From Salegentibacter salarius (GTDB lineage: Bacteria > Bacteroidota > Bacteroidia > Flavobacteriales > Flavobacteriaceae), in NCBI RefSeq assembly GCF_900168265.1, contig NZ_FVZF01000019.1:1-64000 (forward strand): DNA of 64,000 bases, written 5' to 3'. Shown here in pieces: positions 4,961-31,170 of the stretch (positions are counted from its first letter, which is position 1; every line of letters begins with the position of its first letter). The notes under the pieces were generated by a model that worked only from the letters and a program-made list of their open reading frames with translations, did no database searches and was not told the DNA's origin. Both the position numbers and the translations under genes were made by a program.

Positions 4961-5941
4961 ATGTCAGAAGAAATTATTTATAAATATTCGAATTATATTA
5001 AAAAACTCAACCGTGGTTTTAGCAAAAATCTAGGTAGAGCTCCTCATAAACCAATCCTTCTTCTCTCCATAATTCAGTTAATTGCTAAAGGAGTGATTAA
5101 ATCAAATAGAATATTTATTACCTCCGAAATTATTCTAGCTTTTAAGCAAAATTGGGAAGAACTTGTACACACTGGTCATTCACGAAATTTCTCTTTACCA
5201 TTTTTTCATATGAGGTCAGAGCCCTTCTGGTATCTAGTTCCTAAACCGGGAAAAGATATCGTAACCACAAGTTCTAAAAGTATCAAAAGCTTTAATAGTT
5301 TAAATGAAACAATTGCCTTTGCTGAAATAGATAAGGATTTATTTTTCTTACTTCAACTTCCAGAAAACCAATTGTGGTTCGAGCAGCTTTTAATTAAATC
5401 TTTTTTCCCTGATTTCAGAAGTAATTATTCAAGACCAGATAATTATTATGAAGAAGATAAAATTAAAAACGAGATACTAAATGAGCCCAAAGAATACTAT
5501 CAGAGCCATATTGGCCAATTAAAGGAAACTTTGGAAAAGAGCGATTTTGAAGAAGAAATTTTCGTGCGAGGTGGAATGTTTAAAAAAACTATCCCCAAAA
5601 TTTACGATTATACCTGTTGTATTTCGGGTTTAAAGATAAATTCTTCTCAAAATGTTCAAATGGTAGATGCATGCCATATTTATCCTTTCAGTATTTCAAA
5701 TGATGACACAGTAACGAATGGTATTGCATTATCACCAACACTTCATCGGGCCTTCGATCGTGGTCTAGTAACAATTAATTCAGATTTCTTAGTCAGAATT
5801 TCACCAACAATAGAGGAAGAAAACTCTAGCTTTCCTCTCTCAGCTTTTGAAGGAAAACAAATTTTATTACCAGAAAATGAAAATTGGTTTCCATCACTGG
5901 AAGCTTTAAAATGGCATAATATGGAAGTTTTTATGCTGTAA
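4961..5941 (+). CDS. HNH endonuclease with ScoMcrA-SBD-like N-terminal domain
   Basis: A 326-residue two-part protein. The C-terminal half is an HNH nuclease of the restriction type: C219-C220, DACH ending at H239, N253, H262 and D266 in LHRAFDRGL. The N-terminal half (about 10-100) has the pattern APHKPILLLSII, then a spaced W, then LPFFHM and a W. I associate this with the domain that reads phosphorothioated or otherwise modified DNA in ScoMcrA-type type IV restriction enzymes; that link is from memory of the pattern and is tentative. The start is 1 nt after the helicase stop. Family knowledge: HNH motifs make metal-dependent DNA cuts. Inference: it is the cutting effector of the cassette, with helicase and NUDIX as partners. 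Confidence 0.88.
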   Translation: MSEEIIYKYSNYIKKLNRGFSKNLGRAPHKPILLLSIIQLIAKGVIKSNRIFITSEIILAFKQNWEELVHTGHSRNFSLPFFHMRSEPFWYLVPKPGKDIVTTSSKSIKSFNSLNETIAFAEIDKDLFFLLQLPENQLWFEQLLIKSFFPDFRSNYSRPDNYYEEDKIKNEILNEPKEYYQSHIGQLKETLEKSDFEEEIFVRGGMFKKTIPKIYDYTCCISGLKINSSQNVQMVDACHIYPFSISNDDTVTNGIALSPTLHRAFDRGLVTINSDFLVRISPTIEEENSSFPLSAFEGKQILLPENENWFPSLEALKWHNMEVFML

Positions 5942-6750: not shown

Positions 6751-6865
6751 TAATTATTATCCCTTTTTCTGCTATTCATTTTTATAAAACCACTTTTTTT
6801 TTACAAAAACCTTCACCAATGTTCAACCCATCAAAAGCTTCTGTTTTCTTAAATTTCGGCTAAAA

Positions 6866-7560: not shown

Positions 7561-7792
7561 TAGACCCTGAAATAAATTCAGGGTGACGGTAGGGACGTAA
7601 TCCTGAACTGGTTTCAGAGACTGCCTCGATTTGAATTCGGTTCACGTAAGCTACGTCATGCTGAACTTGTTTCAGCATCTAACACGATCTAAATTCTTAC
7701 CAACCTATACTCTCGATTTCAAAACAACTTAGACCCCGAAATGAATTCGGGGTGACGACAGGAATGTCATGCTAAACTTGTTTCAGAAGCTA
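7561..7792. repeat. Palindromic 28-nt repeat cluster (left of GIY-YIG copy 1)
   Basis: Oriented palindromes with consensus TAGAYCCTGAA - 5 nt - TTCAGGRTGACG. Plus copies: 7561-7588 and 7730-7757. Minus copies: 7596-7623 (degenerate), 7654-7681 and 7765-7792. The flanks TAGA and TGACG are outside the palindrome arms, so each copy has a direction. Two plus/minus pairs are separated by exactly 7 nt (7589-7595 and 7758-7764). The stretch from 7488 to 7865 holds no gene; this cluster is its content. Confidence 0.85.
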
Positions 7793-7865
7793 ATATGATA
7801 AAACAAATTCCAAATTAGCAACTAAAATGTATTTTTGAACGATTTTGGCTGAACATATTTTTTAG

Positions 7866-8150
7866 CTACAAGTCTTCGTAAAGATCCTTCAAGTCTGGAT
7901 TCATCGATTTTACCAGATTCCATTTCCATTCTTTATGCCAGTTTTTCAATTGTTTCTCCCTGGCGATGGCTTGATGAATTTCTGAAAACTCTTCGAAATA
8001 AATTAAAAATTTAAGATGATATTTTCTGGCAAACAATGACCCCATACCGCTTTTATGTTCAGTGATTCGTTTTTTCAAATCTGAAGTCACACCTATATAA
8101 ATCATTGTTCTGGTAGAATTAGAGAGTATGTAGATGTAGCTATTCTGCAT
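7866..8150 (-). CDS. GIY-YIG nuclease family protein, copy 1
   Basis: A 94-residue single GIY-YIG domain protein of the UPF0213/URI-like group: YIYIL at 5-9 and YIGVT at 18-22 give the GIY and YIG halves, R28 in LKKRITEH is the likely catalytic arginine, and E64 in AREKQLKNW the family glutamate. The family cuts DNA with a metal ion; many stand-alone members have no known role. It is 82/94 identical to the copy at 9333-9617. Plus repeat 8181-8208 lies about 30 nt before the start codon and minus repeat 7765-7792 lies beyond the stop, so the gene sits inside an inverted pair of palindromes. I infer a link between this nuclease and the repeats, as discussed in the findings. Confidence 0.9.
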   Translation of the reverse strand: MQNSYIYILSNSTRTMIYIGVTSDLKKRITEHKSGMGSLFARKYHLKFLIYFEEFSEIHQAIAREKQLKNWHKEWKWNLVKSMNPDLKDLYEDL

Positions 8151-8180
8151 TTATAAATATAAAAAAAGTTTAATTCCTGT

Positions 8181-8208
8181 TAGACCCCGAAACAAGTTCG
8201 GGGTGACG
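8181..8208. repeat. Palindromic 28-nt repeat upstream of GIY-YIG copy 1
   Basis: A plus copy with arms ACCCCGAA/TTCGGGGT and flanks TAG and TGACG. In gene orientation it lies in the 5' leader, about 30 nt before the start codon at 8150. The equivalent position before GIY-YIG copy 2 carries another copy (9648-9674). Confidence 0.85.
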
Positions 8209-8333
8209 GTAAGATCGTGATTGTGCCCCCAGAGAAAACAGCTGACCCGTTAAAATCCTGTTATTTCAAATTTTCTTAACGCCTTAAGCTTTTAATTACT
8301 CCCAACTTGCAATTCAACCAACAAAATAGAACT

Positions 8334-9062
8334 ATGAATTTGAATGATAAAGTAGCCGTGATAACCGGCGCGAGTAGCGGAATTGGAAAATCTATTGCCG
8401 AAGAACTTTCGAAAAAAGGCTGTAAAGTGGCACTTGCCAGCCGAAGTGTAGATAAATTAAAAGAAATTGGAAAAGGACTTAGTCAGAGTTTTGAAGTAGA
8501 ATTAGATGTTACCAGCGACAAAAGTGTTCATGAAGCTTTTGAGAAAATTTACGATCATTTTGGCCGCATAGATATTCTAGTGAATTCGGCCGGAGTAATG
8601 CCTCTCACCTATCTTAAAAATGAAAAGCTTGAAGACTGGCTGCAAACCATAGAGGTAAATGTAAAGGGAACGCTGCGCTGTATTCACGCCGTACTACCTG
8701 AAATGAAAAAACAAAACAGCGGCCATATTATTAATATTGCCTCTGTAGACGGAAAAGAGATCTTTGAAGGTGGTGCTGTTTACGGTGCTTCTAAAGCCGC
8801 AGTGATAGAACTTTCTAAAGCGATGCGTATGGAACTTTCTCCCGACTTTAATATTCGGGTAACTTCTATAGAACCCGGAACAGTAGAAACCAGCCTTAGA
8901 GAAGATATCTCTGACGAAGAATTATTAGAAGATAAAGATTACGGTGGTGATGAGCCTAAATTATCGCCTAAAAATATTGCAGATGCCGTGCTTTACGCTA
9001 CCACACAACCAGATAGTGTGAATGTGAATGAGTTGTTTATAAAACCTTCGGGGAAGAGTTAA
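8334..9062 (+). CDS. SDR family NAD(P)-dependent oxidoreductase
   Basis: A classical short-chain dehydrogenase of 242 residues. The cofactor loop TGASSGIG is near residues 11-18, NSAGVMP follows the central sheet, and the catalytic Tyr-Lys appear in YGASKAA. The layout resembles YdfG-like serine/hydroxy-acid dehydrogenases, but substrate cannot be read from sequence. Start chosen at 8334 (MNLNDKVAVITG) because the family begins directly before the first beta strand; an in-frame ATG at 8307 would add nine Gln/Asn-rich residues with no counterpart. The gene is isolated between the two GIY-YIG/repeat blocks, so operon context gives no clue. Confidence 0.9.
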   Translation: MNLNDKVAVITGASSGIGKSIAEELSKKGCKVALASRSVDKLKEIGKGLSQSFEVELDVTSDKSVHEAFEKIYDHFGRIDILVNSAGVMPLTYLKNEKLEDWLQTIEVNVKGTLRCIHAVLPEMKKQNSGHIINIASVDGKEIFEGGAVYGASKAAVIELSKAMRMELSPDFNIRVTSIEPGTVETSLREDISDEELLEDKDYGGDEPKLSPKNIADAVLYATTQPDSVNVNELFIKPSGKS

Positions 9063-9145
9063 AGACCCCTCCGGCCTGCGGCCACCTCCCCTTGTAAATT
9101 AAGAAAGGAGCTTTGGATAATTTGGATCAGGGTAATGTTTCCAAA

Positions 9146-9317
9146 CGTCTTCCTGACTAGATGCTTGGTGACGTAAACTTCATGACATGATCCCACGTCA
9201 TCCTGAATTTATTTCAGGATCTAAGATGAGCTTAATTACACAGTATGGGAGACTTCTTAGCATGTTATACCCCCGACCAAAAGTCGGGGCAGGCTCTGAA
9301 ACCAGTTCAGGCTGACG
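9146..9317. repeat. Palindromic repeat cluster between SDR and GIY-YIG copy 2
   Basis: It contains a degenerate plus-like copy ending GGTGACG near 9173, a clean minus copy 9196-9223 and a compound plus copy 9266-9317. The compound copy has an extra nested palindrome (CCCCGAC-caaaa-GTCGGGG then CAGGCT) inserted after its TATAC start. The 22 nt between 9173 and 9196 resemble the 22-nt spacer at 10001-10022 (shared TTCATGA and TGA), suggesting both pairs derive from one ancestral doublet. Confidence 0.8.
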
Positions 9318-9332
9318 TAAACATCTAACTCA

Positions 9333-9617
9333 CTACAACTCCTCATAAAGATCTTTCAGGTCTGGATTTATAGATTTTGCCAGGTCCCATTTCCATTCTT
9401 TATGCCAGTTTTTTAGTTGTTTCTCTCTGGCTATGGCTTGATGAATTTCTGAAAACTCCTCAAAATAAATTAAAAATTCAAGGTGATATTTTCTGGTAAA
9501 TGATGAACCTGTTTCGGTTTTATGCTCTGTGATTCGTTTTTTTAAATCAGAAGTTACACCTATATAAATCATTGTTCTGGTAGAATTGGAAAGTAGGTAT
9601 ATATAGCTCTTCTGCAT
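9333..9617 (-). CDS. GIY-YIG nuclease family protein, copy 2
   Basis: A 94-residue GIY-YIG domain protein that differs from copy 1 (7866-8150) at only 12 positions, mostly around residues 34-47 and 78-83; the YIGVTSDLKKRITEH and REKQLKNW motifs are unchanged. Start taken at 9617 (MQKSYIYLL) by comparison with copy 1; a longer frame to 9662 would extend into the upstream palindrome 9648-9674. Both genes carry the same kind of leader: palindrome, about 30 AT-rich nt with TATATTTA or similar, then ATG. The high identity of gene and leader points to recent duplication or independent insertion of a unit containing both. Function unknown beyond probable DNA cleavage. Confidence 0.9.
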   Translation of the reverse strand: MQKSYIYLLSNSTRTMIYIGVTSDLKKRITEHKTETGSSFTRKYHLEFLIYFEEFSEIHQAIAREKQLKNWHKEWKWDLAKSINPDLKDLYEEL

Positions 9618-9647
9618 TCTTAAATATAAAGAAACTTGAGATAAACT

Positions 9648-10127
9648 TATACCCTGAAACAAGTTAGAGTGACGAATTCAACGTCATCCTGAATTCATTT
9701 CAGGATCTAGGATGATTTTGAGTTCTCCACGACTTAGACCCCGAAATAAATTCGGGGTGACGAAAAATATGTCGTCCTGAACCTGCCCGTCCGTTCAGGT
9801 GGATTATTTCAGGATCTAGGATGAGTTTAAATACGTTTGATTATGGAACTTCCTAACATGTTATACCCCCTACCAAAAGTCGGGGCAGGCTCTGAACTAA
9901 GTTCAGGGTGACGAATTCAACGTCATCCTGAATTCATTTCAGGATCTATGGTGATTGAAGTTCTGAACAAGTTAGACCCTGAAACAAGTTCAGGGTGACG
10001 AACACTTCATGAATTGAACCCTCGTCATCCTGAATTTATTTCAGGATCAATCATGATTTTGATTTCTCCATAACTTAGACCCCCGATGATAAATCGGGGC
10101 AGGCTCCGAAATAAATTCGGGGTGACG
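9648..10127. repeat. Large alternating array of palindromic repeats
   Basis: Nine copies that strictly alternate in direction: plus 9648-9674, minus 9682-9709, plus 9735-9762, minus 9770-9818 (with an internal insert), plus 9862-9913 (nested palindrome), minus 9921-9948, plus 9973-10000, minus 10023-10050, plus 10076-10127 (nested palindrome). Plus-to-minus gaps are 7, 7, 7 and 22 nt. Minus-to-plus gaps are 24-25 or 43 nt, and gaps of the same length resemble one another. The 530-nt stretch between GIY-YIG copy 2 and rluD contains only this array. Confidence 0.9.
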
Positions 10128-18528: not shown

Positions 18529-20280
18529 ATGAAAAAATATCTCGTACTGAGTTTGGGGCTACTTTCGCTGATTTCCTGCGATTTAGAGAAATATCAACTG
18601 GTCACCGAATATGATTTGGAGACCCGTTTTGAGAAAAGTGGTGGTAAAGAAACCGGCACTTATGAAGAAGTTATAGACTTTTATACCCAATTAGCCGAAA
18701 GTTCCAGTAAAGTAAGCCTGGAAGAATTTGGAAAAACCGATAGTGGCAAACCTCTTCATCTTGCCATTTACAGTCCTTCAGAAGAATTTAATTTTGAAGA
18801 TTTAAGACAGAAAAATAGTATTATTCTCATCAATAATGGTATTCATCCCGGGGAAAGTGATGGCATAGATGCCACCATGATGCTTTTTAGAGACCTGGCC
18901 GGCGATTCTATTACAGCGCCAAAAAATACAGTTTTAGCCACCATTCCTGTTTATAACGTTGGTGGTGCTTTAAACCGAAATTCCACCAGCCGAACTAATC
19001 AAAACGGTCCAGCCGAATACGGGTTTAGAGGAAATGCGAGGAACTATGATCTTAATCGGGATTTTATAAAAGCAGATACGCGAAACACCAGAAGCTTTTA
19101 CGAAATTTTTCATCATGTGAAACCAGATATATTTATAGATAATCATGTAAGTAATGGCGCTGATTATCAATATACGCTCACCCATCTGTTTACCCAGCAC
19201 AATAAATTGGGCGGCGAGCTCGGTAATTATTTAGATGAGCAAATTATGCCGGCGCTGGAAGATTCGCTCGCTAAAAAAGATTGGGACATCACGCCTTATG
19301 TGAATGTTTTTAATGAAGTGCCCGAAGAGGGGTTTTCCCAATTTAACGACTTGCCCAGGTATTCTACCGGGTACACCACGCTATGGAACACCATAGGAAT
19401 GATGGTTGAAACCCATATGCTAAAACCTTACCCGAAGCGTGTAAAAGGCACCTATGAGTTGATGCGCAGTATGATTGGTATTGCTGAAAAAGACAGGGAA
19501 CGAATGAAAGATATTCGCAACAGGGCTTCAAGAAAATACCTGACAGATCGCTGGTACCCTATTAATTACAAACCCGATATGGAAAACCCAAGTCAGCGAA
19601 ATTTTAAAGGTTACGAAGGTGAAATGATTGCCAGTGAGGTTACCGGGGGCGAACGCTTAAAATATGATAGCAGCAAACCATTTAATAAAGAAATAGACTA
19701 CTATAATAATTTTGTAGCCGAAGATACTATTGAAATTCCACGTGCGTACATTGTACCCCAGGGCTGGTGGCAGGTCACAAATCTTTTAAAGCTAAACAAG
19801 ATAAAATTAGAACCCTTAGCCCGCGATACAACATTATATGTTGAAACTTACAGAATAGAAGATTTTAATACCGGCGAGCAGGCTTACGAAGGTCATTACA
19901 AGCACAGCGAAACCAGGGTTTCCAAAACAATGGATTCAGTTGAGTTTAGAAAAGGAGATTTTGTAGTAAAAACTTTTCAGGAAGGTGCGCGCTATTTAAT
20001 TGAAACTTTAGAACCTGAAGCACCAGATTCTTTCTTCAACTGGAATTTCTTTGACACTGTTCTTCAGCAGAAAGAAGGCTTTTCCCCTTATGTTTTCGAA
20101 GATATCGCTAAAAAAATGCTTGATGAAAATCCCGAGCTAAAAGAGCGCTTTGAAGAAAAGAAAAATAGTGATACTGAATTTTCTAATAACTGGTATGCTC
20201 AATTAGACTGGCTGCACAAGCAATCTAAACATTACGAAGCGGCACATTTACGCTACCCTATCTTTAGAATGCCCCGCTAA
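18529..20280 (+). CDS. M14 zinc carboxypeptidase-like lipoprotein
   Basis: A 583-residue protein with a lipoprotein signal peptide (MKKYLVLSLGLLSLISC, lipobox LISC), so anchored outside the cytoplasmic membrane. The M14 zinc site appears as H106-P-G-E109 in NGIHPGESDG and H206 in FIDNHVSNG; a candidate catalytic Glu lies in MMVETHMLK. The C-terminal 200 residues form an extra domain typical of long Bacteroidota M14 proteins. M14 enzymes remove C-terminal residues from peptides, or act on peptidoglycan peptides. The gene is divergent from the PQQ dehydrogenase and overlaps the convergent NUDIX gene by 33 nt. The exact substrate is unknown. Confidence 0.9.
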   Translation: MKKYLVLSLGLLSLISCDLEKYQLVTEYDLETRFEKSGGKETGTYEEVIDFYTQLAESSSKVSLEEFGKTDSGKPLHLAIYSPSEEFNFEDLRQKNSIILINNGIHPGESDGIDATMMLFRDLAGDSITAPKNTVLATIPVYNVGGALNRNSTSRTNQNGPAEYGFRGNARNYDLNRDFIKADTRNTRSFYEIFHHVKPDIFIDNHVSNGADYQYTLTHLFTQHNKLGGELGNYLDEQIMPALEDSLAKKDWDITPYVNVFNEVPEEGFSQFNDLPRYSTGYTTLWNTIGMMVETHMLKPYPKRVKGTYELMRSMIGIAEKDRERMKDIRNRASRKYLTDRWYPINYKPDMENPSQRNFKGYEGEMIASEVTGGERLKYDSSKPFNKEIDYYNNFVAEDTIEIPRAYIVPQGWWQVTNLLKLNKIKLEPLARDTTLYVETYRIEDFNTGEQAYEGHYKHSETRVSKTMDSVEFRKGDFVVKTFQEGARYLIETLEPEAPDSFFNWNFFDTVLQQKEGFSPYVFEDIAKKMLDENPELKERFEEKKNSDTEFSNNWYAQLDWLHKQSKHYEAAHLRYPIFRMPR

Positions 20281-31053: not shown

Positions 31054-31170
31054 AAAGCCGTTTGAAAAGCTTATTACCGTCAAGCTGAACTTGTTTCAGT
31101 TTCTAACATCATTAGATCCTGAAATAAATTCAGGAGGACGTAGATAAAAACATTTCAAACGGCTTTTTTT
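31054..31170 (+). terminator. Terminator with an 85-nt loop holding a repeat doublet
   Basis: AAAGCCGTTTGAAA (31054-31067) pairs perfectly with TTTCAAACGGCTTT (31153-31166), followed by a T-run to 31170. The loop is 85 nt instead of the usual 4-8 nt and consists almost entirely of the two inverted palindromes at 31078-31140. The stem would be normal for a DUF1573 terminator if the loop content were removed. Confidence 0.8.
31078..31140. repeat. Palindromic repeat doublet inside a terminator loop
   Basis: A minus copy (31078-31105, arms AGCTGAA/TTCAGTT, imperfect) and a plus copy (31113-31140, ATCCTGAA/TTCAGGAG) separated by 7 nt (acatcat). The order is minus then plus, unlike the plus-7-minus pairs at 7.5-10 kb, so CGTC and GACG are at the outer ends here. 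Confidence 0.85.

Follow-up and report, generated by a model that had tools for sequence, protein, structure and literature searches.

Small GIY-YIG nuclease genes paired with CGTC-type palindromic repeats in Salegentibacter salarius and across bacterial phyla

What acts on, and perhaps spreads, the short palindromic repeats that crowd around two small nuclease genes of Salegentibacter salarius? The locus lies in a stretch of 64,000 nucleotides (positions 1 to 64,000 of contig NZ_FVZF01000019.1, here C8), hereafter the window, of a 3.33-Mb genome in 48 contigs designated G000. As an earlier sequence-only reading had stated, the window carries two GIY-YIG genes whose proteins are identical at 82 of 94 residues. 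The DNA identity is 86% over a 300-nt block, and both proteins match Pfam PF01541 above its cut-off (E=1.8e-16 and 3.1e-16). That reading proposed that a GIY-YIG nuclease may be the enzyme of a Bacteroidota palindrome family, as a Y1 transposase is for the repetitive extragenic palindromes (REPs) of systems with a REP-associated tyrosine transposase (RAYT). It was found that the pairing of such genes with GTC-tagged palindromes is general and reaches well beyond Bacteroidota. The nuclease is the best candidate for the agent that acts on these repeats and perhaps spreads them.

Association of the gene with the palindromes

Two sets of loci were collected by protein similarity. The family set consists of 60 loci taken in descending order of E-value and not by repeat content, with several rows skipped (extra copies within a genome and copies at contig edges). 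The cross-phyla set is the best 80 of at least 563 relatives fetched from a species-genome collection; seven of the ten members of its query alignment were already known to have repeats nearby, and thus these 80 loci represent relatives of repeat-flanked nucleases. The sets are not disjoint: L085 and L098 are one and the same locus. The cross-phyla records include Bacteroidota, Alpha-, Beta- and Deltaproteobacteria, Campylobacteraceae, Chloroflexi, Omnitrophota, Nitrospirae, Ignavibacteriales, Cloacimonadota, and several candidate phyla. A scan for untagged hairpins with stems of at least 9 bp missed the palindromes, whose stems are mostly 8 bp long, and gave no clear signal; it was replaced by scans anchored on the tag.

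Of the 80 cross-phyla genes, 68 have at least one GTCA-tagged palindrome at a distance of at most 500 nt. There are 190 such palindromes in the 78 kb within this distance and 78 in the remaining 945 kb. When all 256 four-base tags were compared, the median near-gene count was 2, and the other tags with high counts appear by eye to be this palindrome again, read in a shifted position or at its tail. In the family set, 35 of the 60 loci have GTCAT-tagged palindromes at this distance, and these make up 92 of the 152 counted. The enrichment persists when only intergenic DNA is considered: the density is 8.4 per kb near the gene vs 0.87 per kb far from it in the cross-phyla set, or 9.7-fold (181 near, 78 far, 9 inside the nuclease gene as delimited in that count), and 7.5 vs 0.78 per kb in the family set, or 9.6-fold (124 near, 79 far, 4 inside). 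The association across loci is very strong.

The palindromes also have a preferred orientation. Within 300 nt of the cross-phyla genes, the nearest upstream palindrome is in plus orientation, with its tag pointing away from the gene, in 41 cases and in minus (inward) orientation in 16, while the nearest downstream palindrome is minus (outward) in 43 and plus (inward) in 13. An outward bracket is formed in 31 of the 46 loci that have palindromes on both sides. The family set gave 27 outward against 6 inward upstream, 25 against 10 downstream, and 18 brackets in 30 loci. There is a preferred spacing as well. Where an upstream palindrome lies within 300 nt, at most 30 nt separate its end from the start codon in 41 of 57 cross-phyla and 17 of 33 family loci; where a downstream one does, at most 13 nt separate the stop codon from its beginning in 36 of 56 and 17 of 35. 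From tag to tag, the outward brackets are at least 351 nt long in the cross-phyla set (median 370) and at least 343 nt in the family set (median 364). Is such a bracket found around other genes? With both palindromes within 40 nt, it was found at 23 of the 80 GIY-YIG genes and at none of 877 other open reading frames (ORFs) of at least 100 aa in the same cross-phyla loci, and at 12 of 60 against none of 836 in the family set; two other ORFs per set are flanked on either side by palindromes that are oriented differently. The two bracketing stems are unlike in 14 of the 15 loci compared in the family set, against only 10 of the 27 in the cross-phyla set, so that unlike ends are a trait of the family and not of the whole kind.

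Furthermore, the palindrome type varies with the nuclease subfamily. Among the loci whose gene has a palindrome at most 150 nt away (102 of 140), protein distance and stem distance are correlated (Mantel r 0.53 for all, 0.49 for the family, and 0.36 for the cross-phyla set), and each value was reached in none of 1000 permutations. Two such loci occur together in five genomes. Four of these (G176, G059, G197, and G099) have nucleases of different subfamilies without a common stem, although at a G197 locus (L079) one of the four stems is of the CTGAA kind; the two nucleases of G107 are alike and have one stem in common. In 199 genomes of the family, those with nuclease type 1 are enriched in repeat type A (CTGAA stems; p=1.1e-6) and those with nuclease type 2 in repeat type B (stems mostly TTCCTGC and TTCCGCA; p=1.4e-8), the nuclease types being delimited by an E-value cut that I set; the cross-pairs are weaker (p=0.012 and 0.13). 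G000 itself has on contig C11 a second GIY-YIG subfamily bracketed by a different palindrome pair (L222, 4327-4770), and a near-identical gene-free pair lies about 2.5 kb from that unit (6780-6853).

The correlation at the level of whole genomes covers one family (199 genomes) and one genus (15 genomes). At least 10 repeats (A and B together) are present in 40 of the 142 family genomes with a match to the window protein and in none of the 57 without one. With a threshold of five repeats the numbers are 51 of 142 and 1 of 57 (G061), and with three they are 65 of 142 and 3 of 57. A type-2 query gives weak matches in six of the 57 (G001, G011, G024, G080, G084, and G145), and three others drop out. 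In the genus, five genomes with the close nuclease subfamily have 102-232 repeats vs 1-138 in nine others (p=0.002, Mann-Whitney), the 61% complete G210 being left out. The others are G203 (138 repeats), G199 (135), G204 (101), G207 (85), G209 (69), G028 (37), and three genomes with at most 8 each. The intact fraction of the repeats (exact copies over near-matches, the two patterns differing slightly) is 0.68-0.78 in the five genomes vs 0.52-0.71 in the six others that have at least 50 near-matches (p=0.004, Mann-Whitney), as expected if repeats decay following the loss of the nuclease.

The palindromes and the nuclease of the window

To judge from their sequences, the palindromes of the window are CGTC-tagged REPs, a class described by Di Nocera, De Gregorio, and Rocco in 2013 (PMC3733652). 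According to the available parts of that paper, CGTC REPs occur in several phyla including Bacteroidetes, with G. forsetii named as CGTC-positive. Like the repeats here, they have a C/TGTC tag, a stem of 8-9 bp mostly starting with AT, a short loop, and a CCA- or CTA-like tail, and they are intergenic and form pairs with outward tags (head to head, HH). They were described there as apparently lacking a dedicated transposase, no tyrosine transposase gene with CGTC repeats at its flanks having been found, and the mobilising agent was left open. The difference is that a nuclease gene is the partner here, whereas those parts report no associated transposase. A text search of the paper counted no mention of GIY-YIG. 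Thus, the palindromes have a published description, contrary to the sequence-only reading, which knew of no described system of this kind.

The palindromes near the nuclease genes carry the terminal tag that marks CGTC REPs beside the stem (CGTC, or else TGTC or CCTC). In the scans, GTC was fixed and the preceding base was free: TGTC accounts for 158 and CGTC for 23 of 186 cross-phyla palindromes, and for 67 and 57 of 129 family palindromes. The stem and the tail of CGTC REPs are found as well. In the cross-phyla set, 161 of 186 have a perfect outer stem of 8 or 9 bp, 177 start with AT (the A being fixed by the scan), and the tail is CCA in 102 and CTA in 32. Among the family palindromes, 32 of 129 start with AC and the most frequent tail is CTC (42 of 129); five of the ten strict palindromes of the window also start with AC. 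HH pairs are the prevailing kind among CGTC REPs; near the nuclease genes the picture is mixed, with HH in 32, tail to tail (TT) in 20, and head to tail (HT) in 10 cases in the cross-phyla set, and 21, 22, and 12 in the family set. The dispersed copies of G199, among the matches listed, are by eye almost all HH. As a separate observation, T far outnumbers C before GTC near the cross-phyla genes (L096-L175), and the dispersed copies in the genus, among the matches listed, read CGTC; the pattern for the latter was itself CGTC, with up to two mismatches.

As listed in Table 1, the two genes, separated by an SDR gene, lie in a dense cluster of these repeats. Between 7500 and 10150, there are 10 strict GTCA-tagged palindromes and 14 palindrome cores of the form CYGAA-N4..6-TTCRG vs a shuffle mean of 0.055, and 6 further cores are found in the remainder of the window. 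The total in these 2.6 kb around the two genes, three degenerate palindromes included, is about 17 (10 strict and about 7 degenerate), where at least 17 further copies had been claimed. A palindrome does stand about 33 nt 5′ of the ATG of both copies in identical orientation, close to the 30 nt first given; it is intact at copy 1 only. The inverted partner said to bracket copy 1 is present and degenerate, leaving an imperfect bracket. On the downstream side of copy 2, an inward-facing core at 9296 lies between the tagged palindrome and the gene.

Table 1. Nuclease genes, palindromes, and palindrome pairs located in the window
Feature	Coordinates	Strand	Remarks
GIY-YIG nuclease gene, copy 1	7866-8150	-	94 aa; ORF, Pfam, AlphaFold2 model
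GIY-YIG nuclease gene, copy 2	9333-9617	-	94 aa counted from ATG; ORF, Pfam
Intact tagged palindrome, GTC + 8-bp stem ACCCCGAA	8184-8207	-	33 nt before copy 1 start codon; tag outward
Degenerate palindrome 3′ of copy 1	7766-7793	+	Inverted partner, tag outward; read from sequence
Degenerate palindrome upstream of copy 2	9650-9674	-	G211 orthologue likewise degenerate
Tagged palindrome, ACCCTGAA stem	7564-7587	-	Palindrome scan
Inverted palindrome pair, tags outward	7654-7757		ATGCTGAA 7655-7678 (+), ACCCCGAA 7733-7756 (-)
Tagged palindrome, ATCCTGAA stem, downstream side of copy 2	9197-9220	+	Tag outward; palindrome scan
REPIN-like outward-tag pair	9682-9762		ATCCTGAA 9683-9706 (+), ACCCCGAA 9738-9761 (-)
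REPIN-like outward-tag pair	9921-10000		ATCCTGAA 9922-9945 (+), ACCCTGAA 9976-9999 (-)
Outward-tag pair with nested GC-rich insertion	10024-10127		ATCCTGAA 10024-10047 (+), CCGAA palindrome ~10106-10127 (-)
REPIN-like pair, 63 nt, CGTC to GACG	31078-31140		Right member imperfect; in terminator-like hairpin loop
REPIN, inverted REP doublet.

Some of the pairs resemble REPINs, and the unit of about 80 nt at 9921-10000 recurs throughout the genomes of the genus. In G000, 62 exact copies of GTCATCCTGAA..TTCAGGATC were counted (32 plus, 30 minus), as were 210 copies of a broader form of the repeat, and the reversed pattern gave none in either count. Many of these repeats form outward-tag pairs. Twelve pairs, chosen as plus-then-minus palindromes at most 130 nt apart, span 62-102 nt, and the two members carry different stems in all 12.

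The window nuclease looks catalytically intact from its sequence. The positions invariant in an alignment of 27 GIY-YIG sequences include Y7, Y18, R28, H32, E65, and N84, some of which I take to be the catalytic residues. The AlphaFold2 model of copy 1 (mean predicted local distance difference test score, pLDDT, 92.5) has UPF0213 BH0048, Slx1, and the N-terminal domain of UvrC as its nearest solved folds, with E<0.001 for UPF0213 BH0048 only; two UPF0213 structures were matched at the sequence level. The Pfam match, the conserved positions, and these fold neighbours place the protein in the GIY-YIG superfamily. Since the Slx1-Slx4 enzyme processes branched DNA according to the titles of its structure entries, a hairpin or cruciform substrate would fit the window protein. 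A phage origin was rejected, as one protein query gave no match in 50,697 phage records.

Presence and absence among relatives, and the possible mover

Did the gene and the pairs move? Among the genomes in which the sites could be read, the gene is present between orf98 and the SDR gene (site 1) in G000, G205, and G202 and absent in G211, G207, G203, G206, G199, and G208. Between the SDR gene and rluD (site 2), it is present in G000, G202, G211, and G206 and absent in G205, G207, G199, and G208. By eye, G205, G207, and G199 have a common sequence at site 2, of which G211 retains only the right part, beside the inserted unit. This suggests insertion with local loss of DNA rather than plain gene loss. 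A 64-nt pair with CGTC and GACG ends on contig C41 of G000 is missing in G205 (63 nt net), and the bases beside it have diverged. It is the sole pair with its ends at the tags in the 86 kb of C41 compared with G205; two further repeat-bearing gaps are not clean. Azospirillum lipoferum 4B carries, between sufB and sufC, a pair-gene-pair block that is absent in the five congeners compared. Thus, presence and absence as in transposable elements is seen for the 64-nt pair, whose ends are at the tags, and for this gene-bearing block. The pair at 31078-31140 is absent from the orthologous place in G205, where the terminator-like hairpin is plain, and perhaps indicates a target preference for hairpins.

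It is likely that the nuclease acts on the repeats. I further consider it rather probable that a compact unit of repeats and nuclease, which acts on its own palindromes, is present twice at the locus, with nicking as the driver of their spread. The unit would consist of the 94-aa nuclease between CGTC-family REPs whose outer tags point off the gene. What the nuclease recognises would be the palindrome belonging to its unit, most likely in the form of a hairpin, either single-stranded or extruded, and the nick would fall at the tag or next to it. The gene-free inverted pair (62-102 nt) would be the dispersed, non-autonomous form, and the autonomous one would be the form with the gene, which measures 343-370 nt from tag to tag in the typical brackets of other genomes. 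Nicked or excised pairs may then be copied to new places by host replication or repair. The copying is assigned to the host because GIY-YIG enzymes are not known to have a covalent DNA intermediate and alone cannot join strands. The enzyme role first proposed for the nuclease is thus well supported by the association, the bracket, the covariation, and the genome-level correlation, while binding, cutting, and movement of the repeats by the nuclease, the most interesting reading, are what I infer from them. A wider possibility, which I hold only tentatively, is that CGTC REPs form a separate superfamily of transposons, in which a single-domain GIY-YIG gene of about 290 nt between outward palindromes would be autonomous and among the smallest known protein-coding mobile units, the pairs would be its non-autonomous offspring, and host repair would do the joining. 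In many phyla, the GIY-YIG enzyme would then have the role that the Y1 enzyme has in RAYT/REPIN systems.

Several points weigh against a nuclease that spreads its repeats. The outward orientation is a majority only, given the 16 upstream and 13 downstream palindromes that face inward in the cross-phyla set. In the genus, the palindrome beside the stop codon is mostly inward and the next one outward: G202 (both sites), G205 (site 1), and G211 (site 2) have two downstream palindromes, the inner with its tag towards the gene (with one mismatch in G205) and the outer with its tag outward. The expectation that every paralogue would have the repeat nearby held in 68 of 80 and 35 of 60 loci, and 12 cross-phyla and 25 family loci are palindrome-free within 500 nt in the scans used. 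The junctions at site 2 are not clean, the ancestral sequence having been replaced in G211 (by eye), and no target-site duplication was noticed by eye at the sites compared. Co-inheritance of linked parts, and not recognition, could be the source of part of the covariation, and the two Mann-Whitney values overstate independence, as the genomes of the genus are related. Finally, repeats occur without the enzyme. No GIY-YIG match was found in the genomes of G199 (135 repeats), G209 (69 repeats), G208 (1 repeat), or G061 (7 repeats); G207 (85 repeats) has weak matches only, and G075 (30 repeats, A and B) marginal ones (E 1e-4 to 5e-4). The prediction that genomes lacking the nuclease lack the repeats held in the family, where none of the 57 reaches 10, and failed in G199 and G209, by which a strict one-to-one dependence is rejected. 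These two genomes indicate that repeats can outlast the nuclease; they fit enzyme loss with slow decay of the repeats, and thus weaken strict dependence more than they weaken the pairing.

What else may explain the pairing? The foremost alternative comes from Neisseria, where Ssn, a GIY-YIG nuclease, reportedly cuts single-stranded NTS repeats, thousands of homologues being said to have their own sequences (a Nat Commun study of about 2025). The window protein is 38% identical over 88 residues (E=9e-23) to a gonococcal homologue (L230), whose gene sits in a dense array of GTCATTCCC palindromes; that gene is presumably the published Ssn and its repeats dRS3/NTS. The nuclease half of the pairing is therefore probably not without precedent either, and the pair here is most likely a further instance of the same type, a small GIY-YIG nuclease with a cognate repeat. 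What sets the Bacteroidota member apart may be its CTGAA-type CGTC REPs, its outward-tag pairs, and its presence and absence among relatives. In a control pair of the Ssn kind, cutting of the single-stranded repeat by the nuclease would serve to modulate DNA uptake, recombination, or foreign DNA; the repeats would be kept as its sites and would spread by recombination or other means, not through the nuclease. The likeness to Ssn, the gonococcal array, and the lack of a noticed target-site duplication agree with this. However, gene-bearing and gene-free units have palindromes and tags in common, both kinds show insertion polymorphism, and the strict bracket was found at none of the other ORFs counted, so that I consider pure control unlikely, if still worth serious attention.

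GIY-YIG homing endonucleases exist, and the gene could be a homing-type selfish gene that landed on older, independent REPs; the repeat-bearing genomes G199 and G209 without a nuclease match agree with this. Yet the bracketed genes sit between two whole palindromes, none of them split, the 57 nuclease-negative family genomes stay below 10 repeats, and the palindrome type tracks the nuclease subfamily, which together make a homing origin improbable. A Y1 transposase of the RAYT type, with the GIY-YIG gene as a passenger, is a still poorer candidate for the mover. Y1 matches are present in 14 of the 15 genus genomes, but the repeat counts do not follow the Y1 counts, and RAYT was rejected as the partner: no Y1 match accompanies the 135 repeats of G199, five accompany the one repeat of G208, and G000 has a single low-scoring Y1 match, though one over the Pfam cut-off. 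The 2013 survey, in its available parts, likewise reports no CGTC repeats at the flanks of tyrosine transposase genes (PMC3733652). Coincidental gathering of gene and repeats in loosely constrained DNA, both being intergenic, is hardly credible in view of the 9.7-fold enrichment in the intergenic-only control, the preferred orientation and spacing, and the 877 other ORFs without a bracket.

Related systems and minor observations

The unit resembles the REP/RAYT systems (REPtrons and REPINs) in that an enzyme gene is flanked by tagged palindromes, gene-free inverted pairs are dispersed, and a single-strand substrate is probable. In contrast to the GTAG tag and the Y1 HUH transposase of those systems, neither of which is found in the unit, it has a C/TGTC tag and a GIY-YIG fold. 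Slx1, the UvrC N-terminal domain, and UPF0213 are its relatives by fold. If the nuclease does drive the spread, REP/REPIN systems have arisen twice independently, on enzyme folds that are unrelated.

A connection of GIY-YIG with CGTC REPs or REPINs was not found in titles and abstracts among the literature matches listed, preprints and most subscription papers lying outside that scope. In the available text of a Moraxella paper (PMC9465073), both terms are present merely as separate genes of one clade. Among the matches listed, I did not find the link to CGTC REPs, the bracketed unit with gene-free pairs, or the insertion polymorphism. The present data tie CGTC REPs of many phyla to a single family of small nucleases, the subfamilies of both matching, and the question of 2013, what mobilises them, is now directly testable. 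The literature on CGTC REPs and that on Ssn are also joined, a connection not found among the literature matches listed.

Some loci depart from the common form. The GIY-YIG subfamily with the motif NKNHTVLYVGR (L078, L082, L083, L090, and L093) has no GTCAT palindrome within 1500 nt and is possibly a repeat-free branch. Of five loci examined in a plasmid collection, one from Rhizobium (L226) has no palindrome, and those of S. meliloti (L228) and Novosphingobium (L229) have by eye CTC- and GTCG-type palindromes, which the scan did not count. G147 has 21 GIY-YIG matches, and three copies on its contig C31 (L232) adjoin GTCATCCC..GGGATC repeats, whose long loops (by eye) left them uncounted by the scan. 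Where L225 has its CTGAA-type pair at 18950-19030, the orthologous place in G205 (L231) has a different GTC-tagged pair, GTCATTACGAA.. and GTCATTGCGAGG..; by eye, two repeat families seem to occupy one site. Elsewhere in the window, an ORF of 326 aa at 4961-5941 has by eye an HNH-endonuclease-like C-terminal stretch, presumably an HNH motif.

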